DNA of 64,000 nt from Cellulosimicrobium terreum (GTDB lineage Bacteria; Actinomycetota; Actinomycetes; Actinomycetales; Cellulomonadaceae), in the NCBI GenBank assembly GCA_014803435.1, contig JACYFD010000005.1, positions 1 to 64,000 of the forward strand, read 5' to 3'. The notes under the pieces are model-generated. The model was not told the origin of the DNA. It made no database searches and worked only from the letters and a program-made list of their open reading frames with translations. How positions within the stretch are numbered: position 1 is the stretch's first letter; each line of letters begins with the position of its first letter. The position numbers and the translations under genes were made by a program. Positions 24,754-28,874 of the stretch are shown here, piece by piece.

Positions 24754-24827
24754 GGTGAGGTGGTCTCCTCGTCGTCTGCCCGCGACGTGTGATGTCGGGG
24801 CTGCTGTCCGGAACGTCCGAACCCTAC

Positions 24828-24849
24828 CGGGACGTGCCGACACGTCCCG
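24828..24849. promoter_or_regulatory. Perfect 9-bp palindrome in a divergent promoter region
   Basis: CGGGACGTG-CCGA-CACGTCCCG is a perfect inverted repeat with a 4-base spacer. On the minus strand it ends next to TAGGGT (24826-24821), a good -10 for the DUF457 gene, so it covers the -35 position. It may be the operator of a dimeric regulator, or a hairpin. The divergent DoxX-like gene starts at 24926. Confidence 0.6.
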
Positions 24850-24925
24850 CTTCCTCCCGGGGAATAGTGTGCCAGGCGAGCCTGTCCCGCGGGCTCCCGG
24901 CCGGACCACCCCGTAGCCTCGGCGG

Positions 24926-25312
24926 ATGAACCGCAGCACCGTGTCCGCCATCGGCCTGTCCGTGCTCCTCGGTGGAGCGGGCCTGATCCACCTCGCCCGC
25001 CCGCAGGTCTTCGAGCCGCTGATTCCCGAAGCCCTCGGGTCCCGGCGTGCCTGGGTGCTCGGTAGCGGCATCGCCGAGCTCGTGTGCGCCGCGGGGGTCG
25101 CGCTCCCCGCGACGCGCCGGCTCGGGGGAGCGGCGAGCGCGGCGCTGTTCGTCGGGGTGTTCCCGGGGAACGTGAAGATGGCGCTCGACTCCCACCCCGG
25201 TGCCCGGTCCTGGGCGCGCCGCCCGGCCGTGGCGTGGGGGAGGCTTCCGCTCCAGGTCCCCCTCGTCGCCTGGGCTATATCCGTCGCGCGCGACGCCGCC
25301 GGGCGGGGCTGA
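24926..25312 (+). CDS. DoxX-like small membrane protein
   Basis: A 128-residue protein with four hydrophobic segments in the DoxX pattern: VSAIGLSVLLGGAGLIHLARP, WVLGSGIAELVCAAGVAL, GGAASAALFVGVFPGNVKMAL and LQVPLVAWAISVA. The paired PxxVxE-like core appears as SGIAELVCA, and FPGNVKMALDSH is typical of the DoxX/MauE-like subgroup that faces the membrane. The start ATG 24926 is 6 bases after a TAGCCT -10, so the transcript should be leaderless. Function of this subgroup is unclear. Confidence 0.8.
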   Translation: MNRSTVSAIGLSVLLGGAGLIHLARPQVFEPLIPEALGSRRAWVLGSGIAELVCAAGVALPATRRLGGAASAALFVGVFPGNVKMALDSHPGARSWARRPAVAWGRLPLQVPLVAWAISVARDAAGRG

Positions 25313-25356
25313 AGTGCATTGCGGCGGAGAATGTGCGGCGAATTCTCGAAAAGGGG

Positions 25357-25385
25357 TTGAGCGGTCCGGGGAATGCGCGTATGTT
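25357..25385 (+). promoter_or_regulatory. Strong housekeeping-type promoter of the Arg-leader / tRNA-Arg unit
   Basis: A -35 TTGAGC (25357-25362), 17-base spacer and -10 TATGTT (25380-25385) predict transcription from about 25392. The first transcribed bases can fold into a GGCCC(25393-25397)/GGGCC(25405-25409) hairpin. A GAGGAG ribosome site then precedes the leader ORF at 25470. The neighbouring DoxX-like gene ends at 25312, so this promoter serves the downstream unit. Confidence 0.75.
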
Positions 25386-25469
25386 CATCCCTGGCCCAGT
25401 CAGCGGGCCGCCGGCGAGAGTCGGCTCCGAGGATCGATCGACCCAGATGACAGAGTGAGGAGCGGTGCC

Positions 25470-25601
25470 GTGCGTGAACGATTCCGGCTGAATGCCAGCC
25501 GCTCCGCGCAGCAGGGCGAGCGTCGACGTCGCACGTCGAGCGCACTGTCCCCGCAGCTCTCTGCCTACCCCGTCGGTTGCTCCGGCGGTCCTGTCGTCTG
25601 A
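25470..25601 (+). CDS. 43-codon Arg-rich leader ORF (putative attenuator peptide)
   Basis: GTG 25470 to TGA 25599-25601 encodes 43 residues; GAGGAG lies 7 bases upstream (25457-25462). Eight codons specify Arg. Codons 18-21 (25521-25532) are CGT CGA CGT CGC, four in a row, all read by the ACG-anticodon tRNA-Arg encoded just downstream; codon 6 is CGG, read by the second downstream tRNA. The ORF stop is 17 bases before an intrinsic terminator. The peptide has no signal, membrane or domain features. Position, ribosome site, codon choice and terminator suggest a ribosome-stalling leader rather than a functional protein. It could still be a chance ORF in a small RNA. Confidence 0.6.
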   Translation: MRERFRLNASRSAQQGERRRRTSSALSPQLSAYPVGCSGGPVV

Positions 25602-25630
25602 CTCGCGTCGACTGACGGGCCGCTCCGGAG
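25580..25630 (+). promoter_or_regulatory. Candidate antiterminator helix
   Basis: CTCCGGCGGTC (25580-25590, inside the last codons of the leader ORF) can pair with 25618-25630: six pairs with CCGGAG (25625-25630) and five with GGCCG (25618-25622, one T-G wobble), leaving two bases bulged. This uses the whole 5' arm of the terminator, so the two folds exclude each other. A ribosome stalled at codons 18-21 leaves 25580-25590 free; one that reaches the stop codon covers it. Confidence 0.55.
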
Positions 25631-25651
25631 AATTCTCCTGGGCGGCTTTTT
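25619..25651 (+). terminator. Intrinsic terminator after the leader ORF
   Basis: GCCGCTC (25619-25625) pairs with GGGCGGC (25640-25646). After one C-T mismatch, GGAG (25627-25630) pairs with CTCC (25635-25638) around an AATT loop. TTTTT (25647-25651) follows directly. This is a textbook rho-independent terminator, rare in shape for this GC-rich window. It lies between the leader ORF and the tRNA-Arg genes, so readthrough is needed for this promoter to reach them. Confidence 0.85.
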
Positions 25652-25674
25652 CTGTGCCGGGAGTCTTTTCCCTG

Positions 25675-25701
25675 CCGTGCGCATCGTGACATTGCGCACG
25701 G
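25675..25701 (+). other. Perfect 9-bp hairpin upstream of tRNA-Arg
   Basis: CCGTGCGCA (25675-25683) and TGCGCACGG (25693-25701) form a perfect stem with a 9-base loop, 24 bases after the terminator. No T-run follows. It could be a processing signal, a second regulatory structure, or an operator. No convincing promoter is visible between it and the tRNA at 25775; the best candidate is TTGTCG (25728) with AAGAAT (25754), a 20-base spacer. Confidence 0.55.
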
Positions 25702-25774
25702 TTCGTCCCGCCTCGCCATTCGTGCCGTTGTCGTGCCATCACGCGGTGCGCCAAAGAATGGCGGGAACGGCTCT

Positions 25775-25846
25775 GCCTTCGTGGTCCAACGGACACGACA
25801 CCGCTCTACGGAAGCGGGGATGGGGGTTCGACTCCCTCCGGAGGCA
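25775..25846 (+). tRNA. tRNA-Arg (anticodon ACG)
   Basis: A 72-base cloverleaf: acceptor GCCTTCG (25775-25781) pairs with CGGAGGC (25839-25845), discriminator A25846. D-loop AACGGACA has the arginine-identity A20. The anticodon stem CCGCT/AGCGG closes loop CTACGGA, anticodon ACG (inosine-modified, reads CGU, CGC, CGA). T-arm is GGGGG-TTCGACT-CCCTC. Pair 13-22 is a C-C mismatch and CCA is not encoded. Confidence 0.92.
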
Positions 25847-25891
25847 CTTGGACGCGCAAGCGTCCCGTCTGCCCGACGGTAAAGGGCACCA

Positions 25892-25964
25892 GCGCGCGTA
25901 GCTCAGCGGACAGAGCACCGGCCTCCGAAGCCGGGCGTCGGGGGTTCGAGTCCCTCCGCGCGCA
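25892..25964 (+). tRNA. tRNA-Arg (anticodon CCG)
   Basis: A 73-base cloverleaf: acceptor GCGCGCG (25892-25898) pairs perfectly with CGCGCGC (25957-25963), discriminator A25964. D-arm GCTC-AGCGGACA-GAGC, anticodon stem CCGGC/GCCGG with loop CTCCGAA, anticodon CCG at 25925-25927 (reads CGG), T-arm GGGGG-TTCGAGT-CCCTC. It lies 45 bases after tRNA-Arg(ACG). A GCCGCCC-GACC-GGGCGGC hairpin (25969-25986) without T-run separates it from rtcB. Confidence 0.95.
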
Positions 25965-26023
25965 CCGTGCCGCCCGACCGGGCGGCGTACGACCCAGCAC
26001 GACGACCCGAGGAGGTCACCACC

Positions 26024-27256
26024 GTGAGCACCGAGGCCCACGCGTTCCCCGTCCCGCTCTCCGGCGCGAAGGCGCCCACGCTCATGTGGGCGCACGAGCG
26101 CGACGTCGAGCCGGCGGCGCTCCAGCAGCTGCGCAACATCGCGGCCCTGCCCTGGGTCGAGGGGGTGCGTGTGATGCCCGACGTGCACCTCGGCAAGGGC
26201 GCGACCGTCGGGTCGGTCATCGCGATGCGTGACGCGGTCTCACCGAACGCGGTCGGCGTCGACATCGGTTGCGGCATGATCGGCGTGCGGACCTCGCTCA
26301 CCGCCGAGGACCTCCCGGACGACCTCGGGCCGATCCGTGCGCGGATCGAGGCGGCGGTCCCTGTGGGGTTCCACGGGCACGAGGACCCCGTCGACCCGCG
26401 CAGCCTGCGGTCCATCGCGGGAGGCGGGCCTGCGGAGGTCGCGCGAGGCGCCGATGCGTTCTGGGCGCGGTTCGCCGGTCTGCACGGCACGGTGTCCGAC
26501 CTCGAGGGCAGGGCTCGACGGCAGCTCGGTACGCTCGGCGGCGGCAATCACTTCGTGGAAGTGTGCGCTGATATGTCCGGTGTTGTGTGGCTCCAGCTCC
26601 ACTCCGGGTCGCGCAACATCGGCAAGACGCTCGCCGAGCAGCACGTCGCGGTAGCGAAGCGCCTGGAGCACAACCAGGGCCTCGTCGACCGTGACCTCGC
26701 CGTGTTCCTCAAGGGCACACCGGAGATGGACGCGTACCTCGCGGACCTGTGGTGGGCCCAGGAGTACGCCGCACGCTCGCGCGCGGTGATGATGACGCTC
26801 GTGGTCGACGCCGTGCGTGCGTCGTTCCCTGGCCGCGACGTCACGTTCGCCGAGGCCGTCAACGTCCACCACAACTACGTCGCGGTCGAGCAGGTCGACG
26901 GGCAGGAGCTCGTCGTCACCCGCAAGGGCGCGATCCGGGCGGGGAACGTCGACCTCGGACTGATCCCGGGGTCGATGGGCACCGGCTCGTACATCGTGCG
27001 CGGGCTCGGGAACCCGGACTCGTACTGGTCGGCGTCGCACGGCGCCGGGCGGCGCATGTCCCGCACGAAGGCGAAGAAGACCTTCACGCTCGACGACCTC
27101 GCCGCCCAGACGGCGGGTGTCGAGTGCCGCAAGGACGACGGGGTGCTCGACGAGATCCCTGGCGCCTACAAGGACCTCGACGCGGTCGTCGCCGCTCAGT
27201 CCGACCTCGTCGAGGTCGTCGCGCGGCTCACGACCCTGCTCTGCGTCAAGGGCTGA
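26024..27256 (+). CDS. rtcB: RNA-splicing ligase RtcB
   Basis: A 410-residue RtcB, which joins RNA 2',3'-cyclic-phosphate (or 3'-phosphate) ends to 5'-OH ends using GTP and Mn2+. Metal ligands and signature blocks are present: VMPDVHLGKGATVGSVIA, the Cys of NAVGVDIGCGMIGVRT, GTLGGGNHFVEV, QLHSGSRNIGK, a late VNVHHNYV and the guanylylated-His region SASHGAGRRMSR. The frame opens at 25967, overlapping the tRNA flank, but GTG 26024 is preferred with GAGGAGG upstream. It lies 59 bases after tRNA-Arg(CCG), so it can share transcripts with both tRNAs. The 3' end overlaps the convergent histidine kinase gene by 11 bases. Confidence 0.93.
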   Translation: MSTEAHAFPVPLSGAKAPTLMWAHERDVEPAALQQLRNIAALPWVEGVRVMPDVHLGKGATVGSVIAMRDAVSPNAVGVDIGCGMIGVRTSLTAEDLPDDLGPIRARIEAAVPVGFHGHEDPVDPRSLRSIAGGGPAEVARGADAFWARFAGLHGTVSDLEGRARRQLGTLGGGNHFVEVCADMSGVVWLQLHSGSRNIGKTLAEQHVAVAKRLEHNQGLVDRDLAVFLKGTPEMDAYLADLWWAQEYAARSRAVMMTLVVDAVRASFPGRDVTFAEAVNVHHNYVAVEQVDGQELVVTRKGAIRAGNVDLGLIPGSMGTGSYIVRGLGNPDSYWSASHGAGRRMSRTKAKKTFTLDDLAAQTAGVECRKDDGVLDEIPGAYKDLDAVVAAQSDLVEVVARLTTLLCVKG

Positions 27257-28874
27257 CTCCACCCGGGGCGCCGCCGACGAGGTCTCGGCGGCGCCCGCGG
27301 GGGAGACGGACCGTGAACGTCGTACCCGTCGGTCCGGGTTCGTCGTCGGTGCTCGACGCGACGTCGATCGAGCCGCCGTGCGCCGCGACGATCGCGTCGA
27401 CGATCGCGAGGCCGAGGCCCGTCGACCCGCCGGTCCGGTTCCGCGCGTCGTCGCCGCGCGCGAAACGCCGGAAGAGCACGGGCCGCAGGTCGGGCGTGAT
27501 GCCGGGCCCGGCATCGGCGACCTCGACGACGACGGCGTCACCCTCGTCGCGCACCCGCACGTCGACCCGTGTCCCGGGCGGCGTGTGCGTGCGCGCGTTG
27601 GCGAGCAGGTTGACCAGCACCTGCCGCAGGCTCGCCTCGTCGCCGGTGACGACGAGGTCGACGGCGCCGCCGTCCGCGCCACCGGCTGCGTCGCCGTCCT
27701 CCGGGGGGTCGTCGGGGTCGTCGCCGCCCGGCAGGGCGAGGCCCCAGTCGTGGTCCGGGCCGGCGGCGTGCGCGTCGGTCACGGCGTCGACGGCGAGCAT
27801 CGCGAGGTCGACCGGCTCGCGGTCGAGGGGGCGGCCGGCGTCGAGCCGGGCGAGCAGCAGAAGGTCCTCGACGAGCCCGGTCATGCGCACGGCCTCGGAC
27901 TCGATCCGGTCGAGCGCCCGGGACGTGTCGGGCGGTACGACGTCGGGGGAGCGGCGCACGAGCTCGGCGTACCCGCGGATGGACGCCAGCGGTGTCCGCA
28001 GCTCGTGGCTCGCGTCGGCGACGAACCGCCGGACCTGCGTCTCGGACTCGTGGCGCGCCACGAGCGAGGTCTCGACGTTCTCGAGCATGCGGTTGAGAGC
28101 CGCCCCGACCTGCCCGACCTCGGTGCGCTCGTCCGTGAGATCGGTCGGGACGCGGGGGATGGCGTCCACCTCCCCGCTCGCGAGCTCCAGCTCGGAGACG
28201 CGCGACGCCGCTGCCGCGACGTCGTCCAGCGGACGCAGGCTGCGGCGGACGAGCCAGGCGCCGAGGAGAGCGGCGGCGAGGAGTCCGCTCGTGCCGAGTG
28301 CGACCTCGACGAGCACGTAGCGACGGATCGTGTCCGTCACCTGGGTCATGCTCTTCGCGACGATCAGGGGATCGCCGTCGTCGGTGGTGGTGGACACCGC
28401 CCGGTAGGTCCCGAGGCCGGGGAGCGTGACGTCGTGCCCGGTGCTGTCGGTAGGCACGGCCTGGAGCGCGGAGAGCTGCTCGTCGTCGAGCCGGACGAGC
28501 TCCAGGCTCGAGGTGGCGTAGCCGGCGAGCGCGACCGTGCCGTCGTCGTAGCGCACGACGACGGTGCCGGGCTCGACCCCGAAGGGAAACCGGGTGGGGT
28601 CGCCGTCACCGGCGTCCGGAGCGGTGCTGTCGCCGGGGAGGTCCTGGTCGCCGGGTGGGACCCCGGGACGGACGCCGTCGCCGGGTCCGCCGCTCAGCCG
28701 CTGGCTGGTCTCGTGCAGGTCGTGGTCGAGCTGCTCGACGAGCTGCGACCGCAGCGCGAGCGTCGAGGTGATCGCGAGCGCCAGCGTCACGGCGAGCAGC
28801 ACGGCGACGAGGACCGCTACGAGGCGGCGGCGCAGCGCGGTCGGTCGGGTGCGCGCCGGTGCGGGTCCCCTCAC
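27246..28874 (-). CDS. Two-component sensor histidine kinase
   Basis: A 542-residue membrane kinase. TM1 is VAVLVAVLLAVTLALAITS near 20-40, followed by an extracytoplasmic sensor of ~140 residues with a Gly/Asp/Pro-rich patch, then TM2 VALGTSGLLAAALLGAWLV near 190, a HAMP domain, and the H-box FVADASHELRTPLASIRGY with the phospho-accepting His. The ATPase domain has N-box LVNLLANARTHTPPG, G1 VADAGPGI and G2 GSTGLGLAIVDAIVAAHGG. A low-complexity Asp/Gly insert (GGDDPDDPPEDGDAAGGADGG) lies before the N-box. GTG 28874 overlaps the regulator stop by 4 bases (GTGA). TcrY/TrcS/PhoR-like; signal unknown. Confidence 0.92.
   Translation of the reverse strand: MRGPAPARTRPTALRRRLVAVLVAVLLAVTLALAITSTLALRSQLVEQLDHDLHETSQRLSGGPGDGVRPGVPPGDQDLPGDSTAPDAGDGDPTRFPFGVEPGTVVVRYDDGTVALAGYATSSLELVRLDDEQLSALQAVPTDSTGHDVTLPGLGTYRAVSTTTDDGDPLIVAKSMTQVTDTIRRYVLVEVALGTSGLLAAALLGAWLVRRSLRPLDDVAAAASRVSELELASGEVDAIPRVPTDLTDERTEVGQVGAALNRMLENVETSLVARHESETQVRRFVADASHELRTPLASIRGYAELVRRSPDVVPPDTSRALDRIESEAVRMTGLVEDLLLLARLDAGRPLDREPVDLAMLAVDAVTDAHAAGPDHDWGLALPGGDDPDDPPEDGDAAGGADGGAVDLVVTGDEASLRQVLVNLLANARTHTPPGTRVDVRVRDEGDAVVVEVADAGPGITPDLRPVLFRRFARGDDARNRTGGSTGLGLAIVDAIVAAHGGSIDVASSTDDEPGPTGTTFTVRLPRGRRRDLVGGAPGGVSP

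Follow-up and report, generated by a model that had tools for sequence, protein, structure and literature searches.

The DNA analysed here is a stretch of 64,000 nucleotides (nt) from Cellulosimicrobium terreum (contig JACYFD010000005.1), which we call the window, and the subject of this report is the leader that precedes its rtcB gene. On the + strand, a promoter, a GAGGAG sequence, a 43-codon open reading frame (ORF) with a GTG start, an intrinsic terminator, a tRNA-Arg(ACG) gene, a tRNA-Arg(CCG) gene and rtcB follow one another in this order. The original prediction had read these parts, together with a run of four arginine codons in the ORF and five T residues at the terminator, as a possible Arg-codon attenuator. 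All of these parts were confirmed and are real. The ORF is referred to below as the upstream ORF (uORF), and free energies of folding are given as dG.

25348..25385, + strand: WhiB7/WblC-like promoter by motif match, GAAAA (25348-25352), GGGG, TTGAGC (-35, 25357-25362), 17 nt, TATGTT (-10, 25380-25385)
25457..25462, + strand: Shine-Dalgarno (SD) sequence of the uORF, GAGGAG, read from the sequence and invariant in 8 aligned Cellulosimicrobium loci
25470..25601, + strand: uORF or candidate leader peptide, 43 codons, GTG start, TGA stop, kept in the genus
25521..25532, + strand: four Arg codons, CGT CGA CGT CGC, candidate stall site, read from the sequence
25580..25596, + strand: predicted antiterminator 5' arm, within the last uORF codons, pairing with 25613-25630
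25613..25630, + strand: predicted antiterminator 3' arm, overlapping the terminator 5' arm, from folding and alignment
25617..25651, + strand: intrinsic terminator, stem 25617-25630/25635-25648, T run 25647-25651, dG -22.0
25775..25847, + strand: tRNA-Arg(ACG), tRNA 1, extra to the housekeeping tRNA-Arg(ACG)
25892..25966, + strand: tRNA-Arg(CCG), tRNA 2, extra to the housekeeping tRNA-Arg(CCG), with an anticodon loop that varies between species
26024..27256, + strand: rtcB, RNA 3'-phosphate/5'-OH ligase, Pfam RtcB PF01139, E 1.5e-119, above the cut-off

By a rule of our own, an SD sequence with an ORF of 15-70 codons followed by a hairpin and a T run occurs a single time on both strands of the 64 kb. 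A strict consensus scan of 24800-28200 returned 0 promoters and 0 terminators, and neither element is therefore a perfect textbook match. An Rfam search of the whole window gave 3 matches, all of them tRNA, with no T-box, described riboswitch or other known leader RNA matched in the leader. Between the terminator and tRNA 1 (25652-25774) there is no TA dinucleotide, so that no TANNNT -10 element can exist there; a strong separate tRNA promoter in this interval, which the original prediction had named as evidence that would count against it, is thus not present.

The loci used for comparison were chosen as relatives of the window's rtcB, so that closely related species are over-represented, and all counts below are counts of loci rather than of independent events. 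The first set of relatives consisted of 80 of 131 confirmed loci; in the class-level sample 110 genomes had a match, and 30 loci and 20 further stretches were used. The closest named relatives at the rtcB locus are Cellulosimicrobium, with rtcB 90-91% identical. Of 17 genomes of this genus that were searched 12 matched, one of them with a fragment, leaving 11 whose rtcB is complete. Each of these 11 has a uORF, 42 or 43 codons in length. The terminator was found in 10 of the 11 by script and in the eleventh (L138, from the same species record as L009) by other rules. One or two tRNA-like genes lie just before rtcB in every one of the 11, the gene in L138 being one to which ARAGORN assigns no anticodon.

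Codons 1-36 of the uORF have a nucleotide identity to the window of about 0.44-0.53 across seven aligned relatives and are free of indels in six of the seven, with a single 3-nt deletion in L009. The flanks of the uORF in the aligned relatives contain indels of 1, 2, 3, 6, 14, 15 and 16 nt. Conservation is higher over the final 24 nt of the uORF, with identities of 0.92-0.96 for five relatives, 0.79 for L008 and 0.67 for L009. The frame of the uORF is preserved in evolution within the genus, and the uORF is probably translated. Its peptide has no Pfam match; the end of the peptide reads SGGPVV in the window and PGGPVV in L144. One record titled Sphaerisporangium cinnabarinum (L006) has an rtcB that is 91% identical and a leader end identical to that of Cellulosimicrobium L134. 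Since it groups with Cellulosimicrobium, its title is probably wrong.

The end of the uORF is also where the leader can fold in a second way. The original prediction had proposed that 25580-25590 pairs with 25618-25630 and destroys the terminator; this pairing exists, as 25580-25596 with 25613-25630. Folding of 25575-25632 into the antiterminator has a dG of -31.0, compared with -22.0 for the terminator. Because the uORF end pairs with the 5' arm of the terminator, a ribosome that completes the uORF should favor termination. In equilibrium folding, the probability of the terminator is 0.94 when a ribosome occupies the stop codon, 0.56-0.66 at codons 34-35 and 0.50-0.61 at codons 3-6, and it is lowest (0.31-0.42) at codons 31-33. 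With a ribosome at codons 18-21, within the Arg run, it is 0.80-0.87. In this folding, the predicted effect of a ribosome at the stop codon agrees with what had been proposed, and that of a stall at the Arg run does not. Position by position, equilibrium folding does not single out the Arg run.

Both of these mutually exclusive helices are kept in the genus. In an alignment of 9 distinct sequences, from which duplicates were removed and L135 was left out because of a pattern mismatch, 92.9% of the antiterminator cells are paired, compared with 28-52% when the partner is slid, and 99.0% of the terminator cells are paired. (L135 nonetheless has a 42-codon uORF, a promoter and a terminator.) One antiterminator pair is U-A in six sequences, C-G in two and U-G, the intermediate, in the window. 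The terminator contains no double change, and its score was reached by 213 of 500 shuffles. Compensatory change, proposed as a check, was thus seen in one pair of the antiterminator and not in the terminator.

The same layout is present in a second lineage, the Micromonospora group, where a uORF of 38-49 codons is followed by a hairpin at 41 of 55 loci; at L050, missed in this count, a leader was found by another rule. The Micromonospora terminator shows 17 double-change cells, compared with 5.9 in shuffled alignments (0/500), and 85.7% of the antiterminator cells are paired, compared with 34-67% for slides. For statistics on the uORFs we used 28 of the 41 Micromonospora leaders, one per group of similar sequences, and 9 chosen Micrococcales leaders. 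In the Micromonospora set the duplex between the uORF end and the terminator is stronger than in synonymous recodings drawn with genome codon usage (Fisher 86.8, 56 degrees of freedom). Against shuffled codons, the Fisher values are 90.1 for Micromonospora and 33.3 for Micrococcales. The signal from this energy test is weak, and at L049, L053, L055 and L073 the hairpin selected by the script was one lying further downstream.

We turn now to the promoter. A short distance 5' of the -35 element lies the AT-rich GAAAA (25348-25352), a WhiB7-type signature. For WblC of Streptomyces the published consensus reads GAAAWY, 3 bp, TKGMNN, 16-19 bp, TANNNT (PMC7157823), and in Mycobacterium abscessus the motif consists of an AT-rich sequence 3 bp upstream of the -35 (PMC10727445). 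The pattern GAAAWN-N3-TKGMNN-N16-19-TANNNT has a single match on both strands of the 64 kb, at 25348, and with the final Y of GAAAWY kept the published consensus has no match in the 64 kb, the sequence here having one mismatch. To judge from its sequence, the promoter at 25348-25385 is WhiB7/WblC-like. A looser form (4-7 A/T, 2-4 nt, TKGNNN, 16-19 nt, TANNNT) was found upstream of 26 of the 28 Micromonospora leaders and 6 of the 9 Micrococcales leaders, and also at 9 of 24 loci of the family that were taken as leaderless; the reverse strands of these three sets gave 0, and dinucleotide shuffles gave 0.01-0.03 per set. Among the genus leaders, 9 of 11 carry the promoter pattern, which is missing in L132 and L138. 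In all, the looser element lies within 700 bp upstream of rtcB at 72 of 190 loci, compared with 3 on the reverse strand.

This genome also encodes a WhiB protein (G000:C9:235563; Pfam Whib, E 6.5e-16) with a KRGRGRPSK tail, which we take to be the AT-hook of WhiB7. Upstream of this whiB7 gene lies a promoter of the type seen before rtcB (AAAT AAG TTGTGC, 18 nt, TATGGT), followed by a 51- or 55-codon ORF and a strong hairpin. Moreover, WhiB genes are linked to rtcB itself: at 7 of 193 loci the 600 bp upstream of rtcB contain the end of a same-strand ORF of the WhiB family. The order whiB, tRNA-Arg, rtcB is seen in L201, L252, L253, L293 and L294 (the last also with tRNA-His), and the order whiB, rtcB without a tRNA in L247 and L295. 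Pfam Whib was confirmed for L252, L253 and L247, the others being called by their cysteine/GVWGG pattern. In the family f10 this rtcB was present in only 4 of 81 genomes sampled.

The two tRNA genes of the window repeat existing anticodons. There are 50 tRNA matches in the 4.49 Mb of the genome, and ARAGORN reads tRNA-Arg(ACG), (CCG), (TCT) and (CCT) at loci elsewhere, so that housekeeping copies of both linked anticodons exist. The identity of tRNA 1 to its own housekeeping ACG counterpart is 0.66, and that to the rtcB-linked tRNA-Arg of L293, from another family, is 0.75. At 44 of 190 distinct loci a tRNA on the same strand is no further than 200 bp from rtcB (37 upstream, 17 downstream), compared with 6 in antisense, and by our own estimate from 50 tRNAs in 4.49 Mb less than 1 of 190 would be expected by chance. 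Because the loci are related, these 44 represent a handful of lineages and not 44 events; the lineages are Cellulosimicrobium, the Micromonospora group, the f10 loci, L010, L241 and L282. Arg is the commonest tRNA beside rtcB, being among the linked tRNAs at 29 of the 44 loci.

Leaders of the same layout also precede rtcB with no tRNA between leader and gene, at six loci (L141, L143, L144, L146, L147 and L179). Of these, L143 has a T run, L144, L146 and L179 have strong hairpins with only 2-3 T in 8 nt, and the hairpin of L141 is weak (-13.2). The claim that the purpose of the leader is the supply of tRNA-Arg does not agree with these six loci. Judged by the relatives, among which leaders recur before rtcB without a linked tRNA, the leader belongs primarily to rtcB and not to the tRNAs.

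As a whole, these results make it somewhat probable, in our judgment, that the locus is a translation-stress-inducible RNA-repair operon, composed of a WhiB7-type promoter, an attenuator that monitors the ribosome, two spare tRNA-Arg genes and rtcB. Under efficient translation, a ribosome would reach the stop codon of the uORF and cover the 5' arm of the antiterminator, the terminator would form and little RNA would enter the tRNAs and rtcB. Slow or stalled ribosomes on the uORF, or none at all, would leave its end free to pair with the 5' arm of the terminator, and readthrough would follow. WhiB7, which is itself under the same kind of leader, would add activation of the promoter. RtcB would then reseal cleaved RNA, and the extra tRNA-Arg would replace or dilute damaged tRNA. 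A general switch that responds to ribosome progress, combined with WhiB7-type activation, is in our view the most likely form of this control; the whiB7 and ilvB1 leaders are described as working in this way (PMC10727445, PMC13236596).

Several described systems resemble this locus in part. The whiB7/wblC attenuator shares with this leader a uORF, an intrinsic terminator and an antiterminator to which both uORF and terminator contribute, but it controls a transcription factor, whereas here an RNA ligase and tRNAs lie downstream (PMC10727445). The regulon of WblC/WhiB7 in Streptomyces coelicolor has a promoter consensus like the one here, and among its members are six tRNAs and enzymes that process tRNA; the main text of that paper does not name rtcB (PMC7157823). 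In the mycobacterial ilvB1 attenuator, too, a ribosome that has come to the stop codon hides the antiterminator and the terminator forms, but its regulatory codons, LVVI, match the amino acids of the operon, and there is no such tight match here (PMC13236596). The Salmonella rsr-yrlBA-rtcBA operon likewise induces RtcB upon tRNA damage; there RtcR, an activator with a CARF domain, senses tRNA fragments, whereas the leader described here would sense the progress of ribosomes (PMC7790460). In Anabaena the TrcR regulon, with the trn operon and rtcB, co-induces spare tRNAs and rtcB under translational stress, but it uses a repressor and separate loci, with no attenuator mentioned in the text available, in place of a leader at one locus (PMC10272220). 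One region of difference in Mycobacterium kansasii contains both an RtcB gene and a tRNA (PMC11316565). No description of an rtcB leader attenuator or of a whiB-rtcB operon was found in the open-licence PMC literature, in so far as its texts were accessible, and the broader result, a whiB7-like leader in front of rtcB together with the genetic ties of rtcB to whiB and tRNA-Arg genes, is apparently undescribed there.

Several observations weigh against an RNA-repair operon of this kind. Equilibrium folding prefers the terminator at most stall positions. Because the antiterminator emerges first during transcription, ahead of the whole terminator, and is more stable alone, kinetic folding may nevertheless favor the antiterminator. 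In the genus, 44 of 500 shuffles attained the covariation score of the antiterminator, and covariation alone is therefore not proof; for the Micromonospora antiterminator the number was 289 of 500. When the Micromonospora terminator is slid by +1, its double-change count is 18, with a similar score. In Micrococcales the duplex between the uORF end and the terminator is not stronger than in synonymous recodings (Fisher 16.5, 18 degrees of freedom), and in the recoding test the individual loci with p<0.05 number 1 of 9 in Micrococcales and 4 of 28 in Micromonospora. Many rtcB loci have no such leader, and in the phylum sample (L203-L228) the promoter motif was present in 1 of 26, with 0.11 expected from shuffles. 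Finally, tRNA 1, which reads ACG or GCG in relatives, is absent in L008 and L009, and tRNA 2, which reads CCG, TCG, TTG or is unassigned, has an odd anticodon loop in L008, L009 and L012. The linked tRNAs are therefore not under uniform constraint.

The limits of the leader's distribution can be stated more closely. The Promicromonospora and Cellulomonas loci that were read have a promoter-like element near rtcB and no evident uORF, and L148 and L149 have a promoter and then a strong terminator-like hairpin, again with no evident uORF before rtcB. The 24 leaderless loci of the family were picked by reading, and upstream sequence was inspected for 21; by a loose rule an SD-ORF and hairpin appear in 4 of the 24 (L152, L157, L174, L180), the ORF of L157 reading as a cold-shock-like gene and that of L152 as the end of a longer gene. 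An rtcB type of 45-50% identity (L185-L200) has no tRNA in the examined stretch at 16 of 16 loci and no terminator match upstream.

What, then, of arginine? In its narrow form the original prediction was that the ribosome stalls at the Arg run when charged tRNA-Arg(ACG) is short or is cleaved by an anticodon nuclease, and that more tRNA-Arg and RtcB are made as a result. We regard an attenuator specific for arginine as unlikely. A run of four or more is unusual in the window, given the composition of the peptide (p=0.022), and the leader of L179 has five Arg in a row. In the 9 Micrococcales leaders the longest Arg runs sum to 23, compared with 15.7 expected (p=0.0007), and there are 14 RR pairs, compared with 8.2 (p=0.014), although the Arg share of these uORFs, 15.7%, is not above that of dinucleotide shuffles (z -1.9). 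The converse holds in the 28 Micromonospora uORFs, in which the Arg share is raised (22.6%, z 4.1) but clustering is absent (p=0.67). There Gln, Trp, Leu, Tyr, Thr and Glu are elevated as well, and part of this enrichment falls in the terminator-pairing end of the uORF. The prominence of Arg among the tRNAs that adjoin rtcB, also at the whiB/tRNA-Arg/rtcB loci, would fit arginine sensing, but among these Micromonospora uORFs the 6 with a linked Arg tRNA have no more Arg than the 22 that lack one (p=0.78). The run itself shrinks in relatives, from the four codons of the window to three in the cellulans group and two in L008 and L009, at variable positions, and a stall at codons 18-21 would leave the terminator largely formed, as noted above. 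We also considered and rejected the more general idea that residues of the uORF mirror the linked tRNA array: p is 0.78 for Arg, 1.0 for Trp, 0.146 for Pro and 0.066 for Gly. Glu (<1 in 5000) and Gln (p=0.004) gave lower values, but these are confounded by relatedness, the signal coming mostly from one set of similar leaders, and mirroring is not claimed. The idea had come from L046, where the uORF end, GRCREQQWQPGWWRD, resembles the order of tRNAs in the linked array (Trp, Pro, Glu, Gly, Arg, Gln, Arg, Cys). The original prediction was right about the architecture, an attenuator-type leader in front of tRNA genes and rtcB, and probably too narrow in making it a sensor of arginine for the supply of tRNA-Arg, a specificity that is unproven.

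At the other extreme, the WhiB7-type promoter might do all of the regulating, with the uORF and hairpin merely fixing a constant low level of expression. The 9 leaderless loci that have the promoter element and no recognized uORF are in keeping with this. It is hard to reconcile with the preservation of the uORF frame and of the complementarity between uORF end and terminator across large divergence in the genus, and with the recurrence of the layout in Micromonospora, and we consider it quite improbable. The role of the tRNAs can likewise be read in more than one way. They may be passengers, remnants of arrays or insertions beside rtcB with no role in repair, as the decayed or altered tRNAs in L008, L009, L012 and L029 and the large arrays near rtcB in L010/L142 and L241 would suggest. 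This seems fairly unlikely to us, because same-strand tRNAs recur in several lineages with a preference for Arg, and the anticodons of the Micromonospora group are mostly constant. That constancy also argues against the view that the linked tRNAs are bait for anticodon nucleases, or nuclease-proof substitutes, mended by co-expressed RtcB. The diverged bodies of these tRNAs and the variable anticodon loop of tRNA 2 among Cellulosimicrobium species speak for bait, as does the grouping of tRNAs with an RtcB-like ligase in Rhodococcus phages, for which a counter-defence role has been proposed (PMC13313380); on balance we hold the bait reading to be distinctly unlikely. Generally hypervariable anticodons were rejected as a rule for these genes, being a property of Cellulosimicrobium tRNA 2.

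Some further observations on the linked tRNAs may be recorded here. An rtcB-linked tRNA-Arg with anticodon GCG occurs in two lineages, L201/L252/L253 (about 150 bp before rtcB) and L012, whose linked tRNAs lie at 2751-2824 and 2867-2941. Reading the loops by eye, position 33 is C in L201/L252/L253 and in tRNA 2 of L012, so that these tRNAs may not decode normally. In Xylanimicrobium pachnodae (L142, the contig of L010) rtcB lies within an array of 23 tRNA genes in 7.7 kb, and the 560 bp inspected upstream of rtcB showed no uORF leader. The genome of L139, whose sequence equals that of L008 with its altered linked tRNA, has 79 tRNA matches, at least 9 of them within a 10-kb stretch that resembles a tRNA array (G016:C9:162312-172261). 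In another family of the order (L236, L237, L239, L241), Gly, Arg, Leu, Ser and Pro tRNAs lie near rtcB, and L241 has Val, Gln, His and Cys tRNAs in addition.

As to the remaining parts of the locus, a 10-bp hairpin without a T run (25674..25702, + strand, dG -18.6) lies between the terminator and tRNA 1. A GC-rich 7-bp hairpin, also without a T run, lies at 25967-25990 between tRNA 2 and rtcB, where aligned relatives have similar GC-rich inverted repeats. The RtcB protein gave matches to four RtcB-related NCBIfam families, none above its own cut-off, and it matches solved RtcB chains such as 1uc2. In an alignment to 2epg_A the segments DIGCG, GNHFVEV, LHSGSR and HGAGR, presumably the active-site motifs of RtcB, are common or nearly so. 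A response regulator gene lies 3' of rtcB on the opposite strand. In two other genomes rtcB is in two pieces, as if interrupted or broken (G115:C1:14221-17347, about 1.9 kb apart; G116:C1:13674-14887, overlapping).

A colicin-D-like anticodon nuclease is one example of a cause of the loss of charged tRNA-Arg. A response to tRNA-Arg damage as such, which seems to us rather unlikely, would proceed as follows: loss of charged tRNA-Arg would slow ribosomes on the Arg-clustered uORF, the attenuator and the WhiB7 promoter would open, and RtcB would be made together with diverged tRNA-Arg as a replacement; the whiB/tRNA-Arg/rtcB loci of another lineage would then be the same circuit with the regulator built in. 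If the reading of the locus as a translation-stress-inducible RNA-repair operon is true, RNA repair would belong to the response that WhiB7 mounts when translation is blocked, and rtcB would use the same kind of ribosome-watching leader as whiB7. Translation inhibitors and tRNA nucleases would then co-induce RtcB and specific spare tRNAs.

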